64,000 bases of DNA from Brachybacterium vulturis (GTDB taxonomy: Bacteria; Actinomycetota; Actinomycetes; Actinomycetales; Dermabacteraceae), in assembly GCF_002407185.1 (NCBI RefSeq), contig NZ_CP023563.1, positions 682,001-746,000 of the forward strand, read 5' to 3'. Below are positions 5,425-37,544 of the stretch, one piece after another. The notes below the pieces were generated by a model. It saw only the letters and a list, made by a program, of their open reading frames with translations. It ran no database searches and was not told the DNA's origin. Both the position numbers and the translations under genes were made by a program. Position 1 is the first letter of the stretch. Each line of letters opens with the position of its first letter.

Positions 5425-7221
5425 ATGACCGTCCCCGCCCCCGTCGCCCGCTTCGATGACGTCGCCGCCGGCCGCAGCCTGCAGTTCGCGCGGGCCCAGC
5501 GCGTGATCCGGGCCGACCGCCCCGCGCAGGTGCGGCCGGCGCTCGCCGAGGTCGAGGAGGCGGTGGCCGGCGGCGCCTGGGCCTTCGGGATGATCGCCTA
5601 CGAGGCCGCCGCGGGTCTCGATGCGGCCGCTCGCGTCCACGCTCCGCAGGAGGGCCTGCCGCTGGTGTGGTTCGGGATCGCGGAGGGGCCCGACGAGGTC
5701 GCGCCGCCGCTGACGACGGGGGAGGGGTACCAGCTCGGGCCGTGGGTGCCGGACTGGACCAGCGCGCAGCATGCCTCCCGCGTCGCGGCGGTGCGGGCCG
5801 CGATCGCCGAGGGCGACACCTACCAGTGCAACCTCACCACCCGGCTGCGCTCGACGTTCGCCGGTGATGCCTTCGGGCTGTACGGCGAGCTCGCGCATCG
5901 TCAGCGCGGCGCCCATCACGCCTACGTGGACCTGGGCCGGCACACCGTGGTCAGCGCCAGCCCCGAATCGTTCCTCCGCTGGGAGCACGGCCTGCTGCGC
6001 ACCGCCCCGATGAAGGGGACCGCCGCGCGGGGGCGGAGCCCGCAGGAGGACCGCGCCGCCCGGGACGCGCTGCTGGCCAGCGAGAAGGACCGCGCCGAGA
6101 ACGTGATGATCGTGGACCTGCTGCGCAACGACCTCGCGCGGGTGTGCGAACCCGGCAGCGTGCAGGTCACCGACCTGCTGCGGGTCGAGGACTATCCGAC
6201 GCTGTGGCAGCTGACCTCCTCGGTCCAGGGCCGGCCGCGCTCCGGGACCGGCCTGGTGCCGATGCTCGAGGCGCTGTTCCCCTGCGGCTCGATCACCGGT
6301 GCCCCCAAGCTGTCCACCATGGCTCTCATCGCCGAGCTCGAGGACTCCCCGCGCGGTGCGTACTGCGGGGCGCTGGGCTTTCTCGCCCCCGGCCCGCAGC
6401 CGCGCGCCCGCTTCAACGTCGCGATCCGCACCGTCGTGATCGACGGGGCCGACGGCTCCGCGGTCTACGGCGCCGGCGGTGGCGTCACCTGGGCCTCGAC
6501 CGCCCCGGACGAGTACGAGGAGCTGCTGGTCAAGGCCGCGGTGCTGCCGGTGGGGACCCGGGACCCCTTCGCCCTGCTGGAGACCTTCGCGGTCGTGGGC
6601 GGCATCGCCCAGCATCTCGACGAGCACCTGGATCGGCTGTGCGCCTCGGCGGCGCACTTCGGGATATCGGCGCAGCGGGAGGCGATCGAGGCCGCTGCGC
6701 TGCAGGCCGCTGCCGAGGCCGGGCCCGACGCCGTGCTGCTGCGGGTCGCGCTGCGGCGGGGCGGGTGCGTGGACGTCACCTCCCGCCCGCTGGCCGCGAC
6801 GCCCGGACCGGTGCGGCTCGTGGTCGACACCGTGCCCACCGCCTTCCCGACCGGGCTCAGCGGCCACAAGACCACGGTGCGAGGCCACTTCCTCGCGGCC
6901 CGGGAGCGTCACCCCGACGCCTCTGACGTGGTGCTGCTCGGCGAGCACGGCCGTGCCGTCGAGACGACGATCTCGAGCCTCGCCGCCCGGATCGACGGCA
7001 CCTGGTGCACCCCGCCGCTCGCTGACGGATGCCTGGCCGGGGTGGGGCGGCGCCTCTCACTGGAGCGCGGTGAACTTCAGGAGCGTCCGTTGACGGTCCA
7101 GGCGCTGCGCGGCGCGGAGGAGCTGGCCGTGCTCAGCTCCGCCCGGGGGTGGCGTCCGGCGGTGCTGGTGGAGGGGCCGACTCCGCCGCACGACACCGCC
7201 GGCGTGCCTCGCGAGCACTGA
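5425..7221 (+). CDS. pabBC: Aminodeoxychorismate synthase component I fused to aminodeoxychorismate lyase
   Basis: This 598-aa fusion makes p-aminobenzoate for folate. The first ~370 residues are the chorismate-binding (PabB) domain, with TAPMKGTAARG, NVMIVDLLRNDLARVCE and the GSITGAPK active-site blocks. The last ~220 residues are a PLP-fold lyase (PabC) domain beginning near DPFALLETFAVVGGI and including SGHKTTVRGHFLAARE. Such fusions are known in actinobacteria. No glutamine amidotransferase (PabA) is encoded nearby, so the glutaminase partner must be elsewhere or ammonia is used. It is divergent from larC across 146 bp, and the coding end faces an amidohydrolase gene across a hairpin. Confidence 0.9.
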   Translation: MTVPAPVARFDDVAAGRSLQFARAQRVIRADRPAQVRPALAEVEEAVAGGAWAFGMIAYEAAAGLDAAARVHAPQEGLPLVWFGIAEGPDEVAPPLTTGEGYQLGPWVPDWTSAQHASRVAAVRAAIAEGDTYQCNLTTRLRSTFAGDAFGLYGELAHRQRGAHHAYVDLGRHTVVSASPESFLRWEHGLLRTAPMKGTAARGRSPQEDRAARDALLASEKDRAENVMIVDLLRNDLARVCEPGSVQVTDLLRVEDYPTLWQLTSSVQGRPRSGTGLVPMLEALFPCGSITGAPKLSTMALIAELEDSPRGAYCGALGFLAPGPQPRARFNVAIRTVVIDGADGSAVYGAGGGVTWASTAPDEYEELLVKAAVLPVGTRDPFALLETFAVVGGIAQHLDEHLDRLCASAAHFGISAQREAIEAAALQAAAEAGPDAVLLRVALRRGGCVDVTSRPLAATPGPVRLVVDTVPTAFPTGLSGHKTTVRGHFLAARERHPDASDVVLLGEHGRAVETTISSLAARIDGTWCTPPLADGCLAGVGRRLSLERGELQERPLTVQALRGAEELAVLSSARGWRPAVLVEGPTPPHDTAGVPREH

Positions 7222-20735: not shown

Positions 20736-22457
20736 TCAGCGTCGCGGCGGCAGGAGGTATTTCCTGTTGCGGCTCTGCGGTGGCGCTGTCGCGACGACCA
20801 GCTCCTGCTCGACCAGGTCGCGCAGCAGCGGGCGGAGCGCCGACCGGGTCTTGCCCGTCGCCTCGGAGATCTCGGCGATGGACTTCGGGAGGCTGCCGTC
20901 GAGGAGGGAGAGGATCTGCCACCGTGCGCCGGAGACGGAATCGGTCATCTGCAGATCGGTCAGCACATACGGGCCGTCGTTCATCCCGACGAGAAGTCCG
21001 TCCGCGACGAGCTGTGCGAGAGCCGCCCGGCAGTCGTCCGAGTCCAGCCCGAGGTTGTTGCGCAGGTCCACCACGGACACATGGCCGTTGAGCTTCGCCA
21101 GAGCCAGAGCTGCATCATGTGCCCGCTCGCGCTGCTCCCGATCCGGCAATCCGTCGAGCCATGCCTCCATGTCAGGCTCGATGAGCCCGAAGCGGGCCAG
21201 CCGTACGACGACGTGGTCGATCGTCGAGGTGCTGTAGTCGGGAGCGGGCAGTCCTTGCTGTCGCATGGCTGTCACCATGAGAGGGACCCCTGAGCCCTGA
21301 TTCTCCGCGACGGTGGAACGGCCGTCCGGCATGGGCACGACGGTGAGCAGCCGGACGAGATTCTCGTTCCGTGCAGTCGAGTAGCCCTCCGCGACGTTCT
21401 CCTTCGTCCGGTCGCCCCAGAAGCCCCCGGGACTCTTCACCTCGACGCGGTCCGCGAAGATGTCCACCGCGACCTGTTGTCCACGGGCGAACGCGGAATA
21501 GTCGCGATGCATGACCCCGTTCGTGATCGCTTCCCGGAGCACCTCGGCAGGGATCTCAGGAACATCGATGCCGGTTGCTCCGTCGACGACCCGACGGGAT
21601 CGCAGGTTCCTCAGAGTCGCGCGCACCGCATCGTCGACGGCCTGGGGCAACGGTCCGTCGCAGCTCTGCCGATCGAGAAAGCGCACCGTGGGATCCCGGG
21701 ACTTCTCCGTACCCGGATGCACAGCGACATCGATGACGAGATGAGGGAACTCCTGTTGCGGATACACGCCGATTGCCAGGTATCCGGCAAGGGTCGGTAC
21801 GCCGGCGGAGCTCACGGCATTGACCCGGAGCAGTCCTCCGAGGGAGTCTCCCGCGTCGATCCCGGTGAGCGCCCGACTGCGGTGGCGGAGTCCGTCGAGC
21901 GTGCGGCCGACCAGTTCTGAGGAGAGATCGGCCGGCGTCGTACCCGTGACCTCCTCGCGGTCGGTGCGGTCAGGGCTCCGCCGCGAGCGCAGGAGGTGGG
22001 TCTCGTAGGGACTCAGGTGCTTGTCGGCATCGCCGACCCTCTTGTAGCTCCCTCGCTCGATTCCCTGTGCACTCACGAAGCAGGGCATCACAGCTCCAGG
22101 GACCTCGTGCAGCGCGCCGACGCGGAGCGTGACCACAGGCGCCCCGTCGACGTCGGCGTGCCGGGGATCGTGAGGGGGGATCGGCAGGACCTTCGGGTCC
22201 GCGCTGTGTGAATCGTCCAGGCCCGAGTGGAGTGCGTCGAGGATCCTCTGGGGATCAAAGCCCTCGACAGGACCGAAGTCGGTCTGTTCGTCGAGCCCGA
22301 GGATGATGAGCCCGCCGTCGGTGTTGGCGAAGGCTGAGATCGTCTGCCAGACACTCTTCGGTACGCCGCCGCCCGCCGCTGTGGCCTCGACGAGAGCGTC
22401 ATCCCTGCCCTGCCTCCGCAGGCGGATGACGTGCTCGCGGAGTTCCTGATCCCTCAT
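20736..22457 (-). CDS. AlbA_2/HATPase protein with C-terminal winged helix
   Basis: The 573-aa protein has three recognisable parts. An N-terminal Schlafen AlbA_2-type nucleic-acid-binding domain spans about 15-150 (ISAFANTDGGLIILGLDE at 40-57). A GHKL/HATPase_c_4 domain lies around 300-400, with the N-box EAITNGVMHRDY (E309, N313) and the glycine box NQGSGVPL (387-394). A winged helix at about 515-573 contains SIAEISEATGKTRSALRPLL. This is the architecture of COG2865-type predicted regulators; the family's mechanism is poorly known. The gene looks less GC-rich than its neighbours and sits beside a gene remnant, so transfer is possible. A six-copy 21-bp repeat array runs right up to its ATG. 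No ribosome binding site is visible, and TACAGT six bases before the ATG suggests a leaderless mRNA. Confidence 0.78.
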   Translation of the reverse strand: MRDQELREHVIRLRRQGRDDALVEATAAGGGVPKSVWQTISAFANTDGGLIILGLDEQTDFGPVEGFDPQRILDALHSGLDDSHSADPKVLPIPPHDPRHADVDGAPVVTLRVGALHEVPGAVMPCFVSAQGIERGSYKRVGDADKHLSPYETHLLRSRRSPDRTDREEVTGTTPADLSSELVGRTLDGLRHRSRALTGIDAGDSLGGLLRVNAVSSAGVPTLAGYLAIGVYPQQEFPHLVIDVAVHPGTEKSRDPTVRFLDRQSCDGPLPQAVDDAVRATLRNLRSRRVVDGATGIDVPEIPAEVLREAITNGVMHRDYSAFARGQQVAVDIFADRVEVKSPGGFWGDRTKENVAEGYSTARNENLVRLLTVVPMPDGRSTVAENQGSGVPLMVTAMRQQGLPAPDYSTSTIDHVVVRLARFGLIEPDMEAWLDGLPDREQRERAHDAALALAKLNGHVSVVDLRNNLGLDSDDCRAALAQLVADGLLVGMNDGPYVLTDLQMTDSVSGARWQILSLLDGSLPKSIAEISEATGKTRSALRPLLRDLVEQELVVATAPPQSRNRKYLLPPRR

Positions 22458-22583
22458 GCTGTCACTGTAGTGACTGAGGTGCTCAGTGCATAGAGTGAGA
22501 GCGTCACTATGTAGAGTGAGGCCAGCTCGCTATAGAGTGACGTGGTCATTGCGTAGAGTGATGCCCCACAGTTCATCGAGTGA
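22458..22583 (-). repeat. 21-bp iteron array upstream of the AlbA_2 gene
   Basis: Read on the minus strand, six units begin TCACTC or a close variant at 22583, 22561, 22540, 22519, 22498 and 22477. Four consecutive copies of TCACTCTA are spaced exactly 21 bp apart; the first unit is 22 bp and the last 20 bp and degenerate (TCAGTCAC). Within units an internal dyad is visible, perfect in the fourth unit (TCACT-CTACAT-AGTGA) and weaker elsewhere. The array ends at the base before the ATG. A 21-bp period is two helical turns, so protein dimers would line one face of the DNA. Binding by the gene's own winged helix is an inference. Confidence 0.85.
22464..22469 (-). promoter_or_regulatory. -10 element of a leaderless promoter for the AlbA_2 gene
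   Basis: TACAGT on the minus strand is followed by six bases and then the ATG at 22457, placing the likely transcription start at the A of ATG. No Shine-Dalgarno is present. No good -35 is seen; the position is occupied by iteron sequence. The same hexamer-6-ATG geometry is seen at larA (22743-22755) and the LLM gene (52360-52372). Confidence 0.5.
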
Positions 22584-22718
22584 GGAAGAGTCCTCTGTGG
22601 AGGTGCCGGGGTGAGCCCTGCTCTCGAGGGCGAGGAGGTACAGGAGAGCGGCTCGGGACCGGCGACTGCCACGTCGAGCGACCCATCGGGCCTCGCGATG
22701 GCAACAACCGGGCGATCC

Positions 22719-22748
22719 TTGTCCTGGTCAGGCCCGACGGCGCATAGT
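22719..22748 (+). promoter_or_regulatory. Likely promoter of the lar operon
   Basis: TTGTCC (22719-22724) and CATAGT (22743-22748) are separated by 18 bp. The start would fall at the A of the larA ATG (22755), giving a leaderless transcript. The GGAG at 22749-22752 is too close to the ATG to be an ordinary ribosome binding site, which fits. Confidence 0.45.
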
Positions 22749-22754
22749 GGAGCG

Positions 22755-24095
22755 ATGAGCCAGACGCAGATGCAGACTCCGGGTCCCCTGATCCACCCGA
22801 TCCCCGAGGGCCTCGCCGAACGCGCCGCCCTCCTCGGCGGTCCGGAGGGTGTGCTCACCGACGAGCAGATCGCCGGTTTCGTCGCCGAGCAGCTCGCCGG
22901 TGCGGACCTGGACGGCAAGAGCGTCTGCCTGATCATCCCCGACGGCACCCGCTCGGTGCCGCTGCCCCTGGTGCTGCCTGCGATCCACGAGGCGCTCGCC
23001 GGGAGGGCCTCCTCCGTCACGGTGCTGATCGCGCTGGGCACCCACGCGGCGATGAGCGAGAGCGCGATCGACACCCTGCTCGGCGCCACCGAGCACGGTG
23101 CCGCGGCGACCTACCCCGAGTGGACCGTCCTCAACCACGCCTGGGACGATCCCGCCCAGATCGCCGACCTCGGCGAGATCTCCGCCGAGCGGATCGCCGA
23201 GCTCACCGGTGGGCTGCTCACCGACATCCCCATGCGCGTGCAGATCAACAAGCTCGTCGTCGAGAGCGATGTGGATCTGATCGTCGGCCCCGTCTTCCCC
23301 CACGAGGTCGTCGGCTTCTCCGGCGGCAACAAGTACTTCTTCCCCGGCTGCTCGGTGCACGACGTCATCGACGTCTCCCACTGGGTGGGCGCGCTGATCA
23401 CCGCCAGCCGCATCATCGGCACCCCCGGCATCACCCCCGTGCGTCAGCTGATCGACGCCGCCAGCGAGCTCATCGACTCCGAGAAGCTCGCCATCACCAT
23501 GGACGTCGTCTCCGGAGGTCAGGAGCTGAACGCGATCGCCGTCGGCGACCCGCAGGCAGCCTGGGCCGCGATGGCGAAGATCTCCGCGCAGACCCACATC
23601 ACCTACGTTCAGAAGCCGTACCGGCGGATCGTCGCCCTGGTGCCGGAGATGTACGACGACATGTGGACCGGTGCCAAGGGCTTCTACAAGTCCGAGCCCG
23701 TCTGCGCCGACGGCGGCGACGTGATCATCTATGCCCCGCACATCACCGAGGTCGCCGCGATGCACCCCGGGATCCGCGACATCGGCTACCACAACATCGA
23801 GTACTTCACCAAGCAGTGGGAGAGGTTCAAGGACCATCCCTGGGGCGAGCTCGCCCATTCCACGCACGTCACGGGCCTGGGCACCTTTGACCCCGAGACG
23901 GGGGTGGAGGAGCAACGGGTGAATCGCTTTTTCGCCACCTCGATCTCGCAGGAGGAGTGCGAGGCCCACAACGTCCTGTACCTGGATCCCGCCTCCCTCG
24001 ATATCGACGCCCTGCGCAGCGATCCGGACACCCTCGTCATCGACCATGCCGGCGAGGTGCTCTTCCGCCTCGCCGCGGAGCGGAGTTCCCTGTGA
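22755..24095 (+). CDS. larA: LarA-family nickel-pincer racemase/epimerase
   Basis: LarA enzymes invert the C2 hydroxyl of 2-hydroxy acids with a nickel-pincer nucleotide cofactor; lactate racemase is the founding member and other members act on different hydroxy acids, including sugar acids. Active-site landmarks are present: H97 in LGTHAAM, and H183 with the cofactor-binding lysine K193 in FPHEVVGFSGGNKYFFPG. The 446-aa length is normal. It is the first gene of a coupled operon with larE and larB, which make the cofactor. The true substrate may not be lactate, because the operon runs into glucuronate catabolism. Confidence 0.88.
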   Translation: MSQTQMQTPGPLIHPIPEGLAERAALLGGPEGVLTDEQIAGFVAEQLAGADLDGKSVCLIIPDGTRSVPLPLVLPAIHEALAGRASSVTVLIALGTHAAMSESAIDTLLGATEHGAAATYPEWTVLNHAWDDPAQIADLGEISAERIAELTGGLLTDIPMRVQINKLVVESDVDLIVGPVFPHEVVGFSGGNKYFFPGCSVHDVIDVSHWVGALITASRIIGTPGITPVRQLIDAASELIDSEKLAITMDVVSGGQELNAIAVGDPQAAWAAMAKISAQTHITYVQKPYRRIVALVPEMYDDMWTGAKGFYKSEPVCADGGDVIIYAPHITEVAAMHPGIRDIGYHNIEYFTKQWERFKDHPWGELAHSTHVTGLGTFDPETGVEEQRVNRFFATSISQEECEAHNVLYLDPASLDIDALRSDPDTLVIDHAGEVLFRLAAERSSL

Positions 24096-25057
24096 CCACC
24101 ACCGATCGCCGCCCCATCCCGCTGCGACCCGGCGCCGAGCCGTCGGCCCCGACGTCGCTGTTCTCGCCCGGCCACCCCGGTTTCACCGTCACCGAGATGA
24201 CCCCGGAGGCGCTCGCGGGCGAGACGCTCGAGCTCGCCGACGCCGTCTCCGCCCAGCTCGAGGGCGTGGGCCGGCTCGGCGTCGCCTTCTCCGGCGGCGT
24301 CGACTCCGCGACCCTGCTCGCACTCGCGGTGCGGGCCCTCGGCGCCGCGGAGGTCGTCGCCCTGCTCGGCGTCTCCCCGTCCCTCGCCCGGCGGGAGCGG
24401 CGCCTCGCGCACCAGGTCGCCGCCGTGATCGGCGTGGACGTGGTCGAGGTGCCCACCCACGAGGGCGAGAACCCCGAGTACCAGAGGAATGACGCTGCCC
24501 GCTGCTTCCATTGCAAGGACGAGCTGTTCACCCGCATCGGCGACGACGTCGTCGGTGCCCAGCGGCTGGACGCGGTCGCCTACGGCGAGAACGCCGACGA
24601 CGCCATCCGCCACGACCGCCCCGGTGCCGGCGCCGCGACCCGCCACCGGGTGCTGCGCCCGCTGTCCGCGGTCGGCATGACGAAGCCCCAGGTGCGCGCC
24701 GTCGCCCGGGACCTCTCGCTGCCGGTGGCGGACAAGCCCGCCGCCCCCTGCCTCGCCTCCCGGGTCCCCTTCGGCCAGGAGGTCACGCCCGAGAAGCTGC
24801 GCCAGATCGACGACCTCGAGGACGCCGTCTACGCGCAGGGATTCAGCGACTGCCGGGTGCGCCACCACGGCGCCGTCGGCCGCATCGAGCTGCCCACCGA
24901 CGAACTGGCCCGCGCCATGGAGCCCGAGATCCGCGCCGCCCTCGTCGCCGCCGGCACGGAGACCGGGTTCCAGCACGTCACGATCGACCTCGACGGCATC
25001 CGCTCGGGACTGTTCTCCCTGCAGATCGTGGGCAAGGGCGCCGGGGCGCATGGCTGA
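24092..25057 (+). CDS. larE: ATP-dependent sulfur transferase LarE
   Basis: LarE adenylates the cofactor precursor's carboxylates and transfers sulfur to them. The PP-loop ATP site is AFSGGVDSATLL (65-76). Three cysteines stand out: C138 and C141 in RCFHCKDELF and C220 in APCLASRVPF. In the L. plantarum enzyme a single cysteine is consumed as sulfur donor, whereas LarE proteins with three such cysteines can carry a [4Fe-4S] cluster; this one fits the latter pattern. The GTG start at 24092 overlaps the larA stop (GTGA), indicating translational coupling. Length is 321 aa, with an N-terminal extension of about 35 residues that looks disordered. Confidence 0.9.
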   Translation: MTTTDRRPIPLRPGAEPSAPTSLFSPGHPGFTVTEMTPEALAGETLELADAVSAQLEGVGRLGVAFSGGVDSATLLALAVRALGAAEVVALLGVSPSLARRERRLAHQVAAVIGVDVVEVPTHEGENPEYQRNDAARCFHCKDELFTRIGDDVVGAQRLDAVAYGENADDAIRHDRPGAGAATRHRVLRPLSAVGMTKPQVRAVARDLSLPVADKPAAPCLASRVPFGQEVTPEKLRQIDDLEDAVYAQGFSDCRVRHHGAVGRIELPTDELARAMEPEIRAALVAAGTETGFQHVTIDLDGIRSGLFSLQIVGKGAGAHG

Positions 25058-25778
25058 GACACGCGGGCCGGCCGACGGGGCAGCCGACGGGAAGATCGAC
25101 GGCTTCCTCGATCTGGACCTGGATCGCGCCCGCCGCCGCGGCGCCCCCGAGGCGGTGCTCTGCGACGCCAAGAGCGTCGAGCAGGTCGGCGCGATCGCCG
25201 CGGAGTACGCGCGGCTGCGCACCGAGGGCCGGGGCGACCTCGGCCCGGTGCTGTTCACCCGGGCCGACGCGGCTCGTGCCGACGCGGTGCTGACCGCCCT
25301 GCCCGAGGCGCTCCACGACGCCGACGCCCGCCTGCTCGCTTGGCCCCCCGCGCCCCCGGAGCCGACCGGAGGCCTGGTCGTCGTCGCCTGTGCAGGGACC
25401 AGCGACCTCCCGGCGGCCCGCGAGGCGGAGCTCACCGCCCGCTATCTCGGACGGCCCGTCCGGCTGATCGCGGACATCGGCATCGCCGGCCTGCATCGCC
25501 TCCAGTCCCGCCTGCCCGAGCTGCGGGAGGCCGCCTGCGTGGTGGTCGCCGCCGGGATGGACGGAGCACTGCCCACCGTCGTCGCGGGACAGATCAGCGC
25601 GCCCGTGGTCGCGCTGCCCACCTCCGTCGGCTACGGGGTCGCGGCGGGCGGCGTCACCGCGGCGCTCACCATGCTCTCCGCCTGCGCGCCCGGCATCGGC
25701 GTGGTCAACATCGACAACGGCTACGGCGCCGGCCATCTCGCCGCGCAGATCGCCCGCTGGGCCCCGGGGGCCCGGTGA
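25050..25778 (+). CDS. larB: Pyridinium-3,5-biscarboxylic acid mononucleotide synthase LarB
   Basis: LarB carboxylates and hydrolyses nicotinic acid adenine dinucleotide as the first step of nickel-pincer cofactor synthesis. This 242-aa protein has the PurE/AIR-carboxylase-like C-terminal domain: VVVACAGTSDLPAAREAE, VVVAAGMDGALPTVVAG and ALPTSVGYGVAAGGVTAAL. The N-terminal part contains the conserved LDLDRARRRGAPEAVLCDAKS block. It overlaps larE by 8 bp and is followed by an overlapping SMR gene, so the whole set is one operon. LarC, needed for nickel insertion, is encoded at 3854-5278. Confidence 0.92.
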   Translation: MAETRGPADGAADGKIDGFLDLDLDRARRRGAPEAVLCDAKSVEQVGAIAAEYARLRTEGRGDLGPVLFTRADAARADAVLTALPEALHDADARLLAWPPAPPEPTGGLVVVACAGTSDLPAAREAELTARYLGRPVRLIADIGIAGLHRLQSRLPELREAACVVVAAGMDGALPTVVAGQISAPVVALPTSVGYGVAAGGVTAALTMLSACAPGIGVVNIDNGYGAGHLAAQIARWAPGAR

Positions 25779-37483: not shown

Positions 37484-37532
37484 CTGGCCGTTGGCCGTTG
37501 GCCGTTGGCCGTTGGCCGTTGGCCGTTGGCCG
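37484..37532. repeat. Heptanucleotide repeat (TTGGCCG), seven copies
   Basis: CTGGCCG at 37484-37490 is followed by six perfect TTGGCCG units to 37532, then a decayed unit. It begins 12 bp past the stop codon of the tricorn protease gene (minus strand), between that stop and the inverted repeat. Such perfect short tandem arrays are prone to slippage. Confidence 0.9.
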
Positions 37533-37544
37533 CTGGGCGGTGGC

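Follow-up and report, generated by a model that had tools for sequence, protein, structure and literature searches.

The repeat array and its gene

The window, by which we mean the whole 64-kb stretch of DNA analysed, carries on its minus strand a gene (P0001, 20736-22457) for a 573-aa protein with Schlafen (AlbA_2), GHKL and winged-helix domains. Directly adjoining its ATG (22457) is an array of six repeat units on the same strand, running from 22583 to 22458 with spacings of 22, 21, 21, 21 and 21 bp. Unit 1 (22562-22583) is degenerate and lies 22 bp from unit 2 (22541-22561; TCACTCTACGCAATGA plus 5 nt), which is followed by unit 3 (22520-22540; TCACTCTATAGCGAGC plus 5), unit 4 (22499-22519; TCACTCTACATAGTGA plus 5), unit 5 (22478-22498; TCACTCTATGCACTGA plus 5) and unit 6 (22458-22477; TCAGTCACTACAGTGACAGC), which adjoins the start codon. 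The word TCACTCTA occurs on the minus strand at 22491, 22512, 22533 and 22554, in steps of exactly 21 bp; these are all of its copies in the window, where 0.16 would be expected, and four copies were reached in 0 of 100 shuffles. A perfect TCACT-N6-AGTGA dyad is found in unit 4 only, at least one arm being degenerate in every other unit; in unit 5 TCACT faces ACTGA, and the arms vary independently. A preliminary description of this DNA, made from the letters alone, was thus correct in reporting four copies at exact 21-bp spacing, and its six units with degenerate ends are present, except that the outermost spacing is 22 rather than 21; the dyad that it ascribed to the units in general is perfect only in the fourth.

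Nowhere else in the window do at least three exact 8-mers follow each other at 20-22 bp, and the six near-copies in the array were reached in 0 of 2000 dinucleotide shuffles of its 130 bp (maximum 5). A loose count of six near-copies is also found in 12 of 983 window tiles, none of them the array tile since the tiling cuts the array. The case for the array therefore rests on its exact words and their phase, because the loose count is reached elsewhere in this GC-rich window. Tandem Repeats Finder, at a minimum score of 30, did not report the array. A replication origin, as the earlier label of "iteron" might imply, was rejected: a Rep domain was present in 0 of 5 nearby proteins scanned and the locus lies on a single 3.8-Mb contig.

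Within the protein, whose domain coordinates are all on the minus strand, residues 1-160 (21978-22457) form the SLFN_AlbA_2 domain, in which D19, E24 and E57 are candidate RNase carboxylates, and residues 233-423 (21189-21761) form a GHKL fold with Pfam HATPase_c_4 at 326-418. Winged helix 1 spans residues 440-505 (20943-21140) and winged helix 2, which is MarR/ArsR/IclR-like and our proposed reader of the array, residues 506-573 (20739-20942); in the latter, LRPLLR (residues 541-546; 20820-20837) lies in the predicted recognition helix. The AlphaFold model is confident (mean pLDDT 93.7, pTM 0.81) and contains the AlbA_2 domain, the GHKL fold and both winged helices. Moreover, SLFN_AlbA_2 and HATPase_c_4 both score above their curated cut-offs in the window protein and both match 77/77 aligned proteins. 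The C-terminal winged helix that marks bacterial Schlafen-GHKL-wHTH proteins is likewise present, and the combination of AlbA_2, a GHKL ATPase-type domain and a winged helix proposed at the outset is confirmed by the curated matches and the model.

Positions 19, 24 and 57 are acidic in 77/77 aligned proteins, and E309, N313, G344 and G390 of the GHKL domain are invariant in the same 77. The family profile matches the SLFN13 (2.9e-6) and SLFN12 (5e-5) chains, with E24 and E57 aligning with SLFN13 acids and D19 with a SLFN12 acid; by residue count, E24, E57 and D19 correspond to E210, D248 and E205 of SLFN13 as given in PMC5862951. The match to the SLFN13 and SLFN12 RNase cores covers a short aligned stretch, and residue conservation points to a putative three-carboxylate Schlafen RNase active site in what we regard as a putative RNase. 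The window protein has T26 (22380-22382), a position that is K in 76/77 aligned proteins, as it is in the relative from genome G032 with 98% identity. The window copy may be altered in its Schlafen core.

Divergent from this gene on the plus strand is a LarA-like gene (22755-24095, with ATG 22755 being our choice of start), and larE and larB come after it. Among these lar genes (22755-25778), the LarA homologue scores best in NCBIfam against a model for a nickel-dependent putative hexonate epimerase, far short of the cut-off.

We searched the window's own genome (G000) with the pattern TCACTNTANNNAGTGA and found 24 matches with up to two mismatches, while the reversed control gave 21. Of the matches with 0-1 mismatch, the one at 6603 is the sole case outside the array. 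This pattern search found no second array in G000, and a wider regulon was rejected on these counts. Two more AlbA_2/HATPase genes are present in the genome, with other upstream words, namely ACTCTAAA/TTTAGAGT at L002 and CATACTTT/AAAGTATG at L003. Therefore, these paralogues may be addressed separately.

Start-codon arrays among homologues

Homologues were sought in genomes of the same genus (a match at E<=0.001 in 16/38) and family (20/47), and more widely in the order (73/396, E<=1e-30) and the class (33/394, E<=1e-30). A locus was retained if its tblastn match reached E<=1e-20 and began no later than residue 45, and if it had 200 bp of upstream sequence along with a usable start codon. The 124 loci that passed included re-fetches of one place and were collapsed at 90% identity over 200 residues to 94. 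For each of these, the best 8-mer, allowing one mismatch on both strands of the 130 bp upstream, was compared with 100 shuffles; 130 control ORFs from the same loci were treated in the same way, these being longest ORFs (120 aa or more) and not annotated genes. Significant repeats at the start codon (p<=0.01) were found in 40/94 homologues compared with 1/130 controls, and at p<=0.05 in 51/94 compared with 5/130. Upstream of the other 43/94 homologues p<=0.05 was not reached, and some of these have visible short palindromes. Hence the comparison of upstream regions suggested in the preliminary description did recover repeats, and it is not the case that homologues lack them altogether, though 43 have none that is significant.

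Arrays of TCACT/TCAGT half-sites lie at or close before the start codons of homologues sharing 98, 73, 64, 60, 50 and 42% identity with the window protein, and the repeat words differ among subfamilies. Same-strand spacings in homologues peak at 11-12, 21-24, 32, 42 and 63 bp. Their phasing on a 10.5-bp period gives a resultant of 0.60 (n=333), compared with 0.17 (n=98) in 28 control windows that have at least four near-copies. Among the 11 large loci compared, the neighbours of the window gene are common only to the near-identical G032, and in the other 10 none of nine neighbour proteins was shared at E<=1e-15. Between G000 and G032, differences fall at 1/30 positions of the left half-sites, 1/18 of CTA and 4/30 of the right half-sites, against 10/48 at other array positions and 13/74 in the flank, which is suggestive, on small numbers, of constraint on the left arms.

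The last unit of the array contains TACAGT (22469-22464, minus strand), a probable -10 element of the form TANNNT that ends 6 nt before the start codon, and in this the array both adjoins the ATG and covers the element as originally described. A TANNNT ending exactly 6 nt before the start was found in 26/94 homologues, the window gene included, against 5/130 control ORFs, and one ending 4-9 nt before it in 38/94 against 9/130. Leaderless genes are common in actinobacteria. This placing of TANNNT is what a leaderless promoter would show if its -10 lay within the operator, which is compatible with the leaderless start that had been proposed from the window alone. No sigma-70-type hexamer pair passed the promoter scan, and therefore the -35 would be weak or absent. 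Taken together, these data make it very likely that the array is an operator of its own gene.

Ten distant relatives were collected from plasmid and phage records, and L172 was left out as it has no usable start; a significant upstream repeat was found in one of the nine tested (L170). L170 is a distant homologue on a fecal "bacteriophage" contig in which repeats resembling TTTTAGTGTTGAT recur at steps of about 21 bp upstream of 1501 (p 0.010). Therefore, the 21-bp habit may reach beyond the Actinomycetes.

The proposed reader of the array, and arrays without the gene

The motif LRPxLR in winged helix 2 is present in 12/94 homologues, and 12/12 of these have at least six TCAST half-sites within 135 bp. 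Among homologues without it, at least six half-sites were found in 1/82, namely L015, which has LRPLLK (Fisher p 2.7e-14, a value that is only descriptive because the threshold was post hoc and descent is uncorrected: the association between helix and word was noticed before the test, the threshold was set afterwards, and the members, 35-73% identical, are confounded by descent). In three homologues of about 500 aa (L057, L039 and L062) winged helix 1 is not aligned and the same array is kept. We therefore consider it likely, from the comparison of sequences, that the array is read by winged helix 2 of the gene's own product.

The preliminary description had instead assigned DNA binding to the AlbA_2 domain, with ATP binding by the GHKL domain switching autorepression. 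A survey of pAgo proteins describes AlbA_2 as DNA-binding (PMC6299218), and the four invariant GHKL residues would suit the ATP part of this proposal. However, the family profile matches Schlafen cores together with their three conserved acids, and in G036 an array lies before an ORF (from a candidate start) that has only the winged-helix part. In a regression on upstream similarity the weight of winged helix 2 (0.128) also exceeded that of AlbA_2 (0.057), all weights being weak. Protein identity by domain correlates with upstream k-mer similarity at a Spearman coefficient of 0.08-0.17, which is weak everywhere and decides little. We judge this alternative unlikely. AlbA_2 is probably not the DNA binder, given its match to the mammalian Schlafen cores and an operator word that tracks the C-terminal winged helix.

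Arrays can also be found apart from an intact gene. A protein-independent two-unit pattern was found in 11/396 genomes of the order, at 13 places, with 0 in the reversed control. Seven of the 13 are at an intact homologue (G000, G009, G035, G038, G041, G095 and G385), one is at the C-terminal remnant in G036, and five lack such a gene beside them (G037:C29, G037:C105, G009:C1:237206, G004:C6 and G334:C1). The match in G334 consists of two units only and is perhaps due to chance. In G037 the tail of an orphan array resembles the gene's last codons by eye, and the nucleotide match is not significant. The place in G009 (L195, 5707) is an orphan three-unit array that ends at an ATG with no Schlafen gene beside it, and the other strand of this region resembles, by eye, a fragment of a P-loop kinase.

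At G385:C45, near 32285 (L062), a second array lies downstream of the Schlafen gene in a 233-bp direct repeat that is 88% identical to the upstream array, and it is this downstream copy that the two-unit pattern matched in G385. Recombination between such direct repeats would remove the gene, leaving an array behind. The array could be mainly the end, or the recombination substrate, of a mobile cassette with regulation being secondary, a reading also favoured by the differing neighbourhoods of the loci and by the arrays that stand without the gene in G037, G009 and phage regions. Against this, a downstream copy was found in only 1/15 loci checked, the other 14 having none in the stretches examined, the geometry of -10 and start is recurrent, and the word follows the recognition helix. 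A primarily mobile function is thus quite improbable.

TCAST arrays were also found in three high-GC phage-like regions: L196 at 5510-5660 (the G004:C6 place above), L201 at about 5740-5860 and L203 at about 870-980. Within 130 bp these have 11 (background maximum 2), 8 (maximum 1) and 8 (maximum 1) half-sites respectively, and endolysin, tail or integrase genes are found no more than about 2 kb from each. L201 and L203 are the only ones to stand out among the IMG/VR motif loci, which were collected as sets of 7 and 6 with four shared. No protein with LRPxLR or LRPxLK was found near the phage-region arrays in the stretches examined. These arrays may be scars, decoys or triggers.

A candidate self-regulated defence effector

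Our hypothesis is that a single-gene bacterial Schlafen defence effector represses itself through the array, which would serve as its autoregulatory operator and be read by its C-terminal winged helix; we regard this reading as a whole as probable. Autoregulation is supported because the array accompanies the gene in neighbourhoods that are otherwise unrelated and because the word tracks the recognition helix. Of the autorepression proposed in the preliminary description, an operator at the gene's own promoter stands, given that the array recurs with the gene in different genomes and settings, that a probable -10 lies in the last unit in a leaderless geometry and that no second array was found in its own genome; AlbA_2 as the binder does not. 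Under our model, winged helix 2 with its LRPxLR recognition helix would bind the TCACT/TCAGT half-sites, two per 21-bp unit, and the bound dimers would line up on one face of the DNA, each unit spanning two helical turns. Since the presumed leaderless -10 lies under unit 6, occupancy of that unit would block RNA polymerase and so hold down the amount of an N-terminal RNase that may be toxic. A signal, for which the GHKL domain is the probable sensor, perhaps with ATP taking part, would then change the protein such that the operator is released, the RNase is freed, or both. That the gene product is a Schlafen RNase defence effector seems to us somewhat better than an even guess, and the overall reading is weakened by the 43/94 homologues that lack a significant repeat, by the orphan arrays and by T26 in the window copy.

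The net effect of the array is, in our estimate, fairly likely to be repression. An activator site, or a site for another regulator such as one of the divergent lar genes, is a distinctly unlikely alternative: the array is about 170 bp from larA if that gene starts at ATG 22755, but unit 6 overlaps the probable -10, as a repressor's site would, and the lar neighbours are absent from 10 of the 11 large loci whereas elsewhere the array stays with the Schlafen gene. Least probable, and only barely credible, is that the array gives rise to a repeat RNA acting as antidote to the RNase, in the manner of ToxI in type III toxin-antitoxin pairs, since its location directly upstream of a putative RNase gene and a mild folding excess (z -1.83) are countered by the lack of a terminator-like site between array and gene (simple scan, 22400-22800), the lack of an Rfam match up to E=1, the independent variation of the arms as in unit 5, and the 10.5-bp phasing and mixed orientation in relatives, which suit DNA binding.

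An autorepressed effector of this kind would be similar in its logic to BrxR-type separate repressors of defence operons, by which a harmful effector is kept silent. CapW is a further separate repressor of defence operons. The window protein differs from the BrxR type in that effector, sensor-like and repressor-like domains would be combined in one polypeptide acting on its own gene. Schlafen-kinase-like-wHTH proteins have been reported in BREX defence loci (PMC12839542), and their domain order is the same as that of the window protein; unlike them, the window gene is solitary and not part of a BREX operon. Neither "autoregul" nor "operator" occurs in the main text of that report, and our full-text literature searches recognised no operator for the Schlafen-GHKL-wHTH family. 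TrlG of Photorhabdus combines AlbA_2 with HATPase_c_4 as the window protein does, and is described as effector-like, restricting growth at higher temperature (PMC7554251); in contrast to the window gene, it belongs to an operon of three genes, one of which, trlR, is a separate regulator-like gene (PMC7554251). DIP2311 of Corynebacterium diphtheriae (PDB 3lmm, the entry title of which gives no function) shares 21% identity with the window protein and has its domains placed differently (rmsd 16.2). SspH (PMC9137472) was set aside as an unrelated single-domain HATPase.

A distant relative (27.7% identity over 65%) lies between brxC and pglX. Counting against the proposed reading, defence neighbours are few among the PADLOC families listed (the first 25 of 204): type I specificity models matched 4/100 scanned neighbour ORFs by PADLOC and 2/100 by Pfam Methylase_S. 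A role in defence has only recently been reported for bacterial Schlafens, and start-codon arrays bear on how such an RNase could be kept silent. The link between helix and word makes this regulation testable and offers a sequence-based prediction of which Schlafen binds which DNA.

The TCAST arrays in phage-like regions offer a possible trigger. The array might also be a sensor, whereby a Schlafen held silent on its operator is titrated off by phage TCAST arrays, raising expression and freeing the RNase, or phages might keep such arrays as decoys; we consider this extension improbable. If true, gene and array would form a self-contained immune cassette in which the recognition-helix code serves as both repressor site and phage detector.

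Lastly, a second repeat in the window, the heptanucleotide TGGCCGT in 8.6 copies (37485-37544), adjoins the 3′ end of a 1181-aa ORF on the minus strand and is a possible variable tract.
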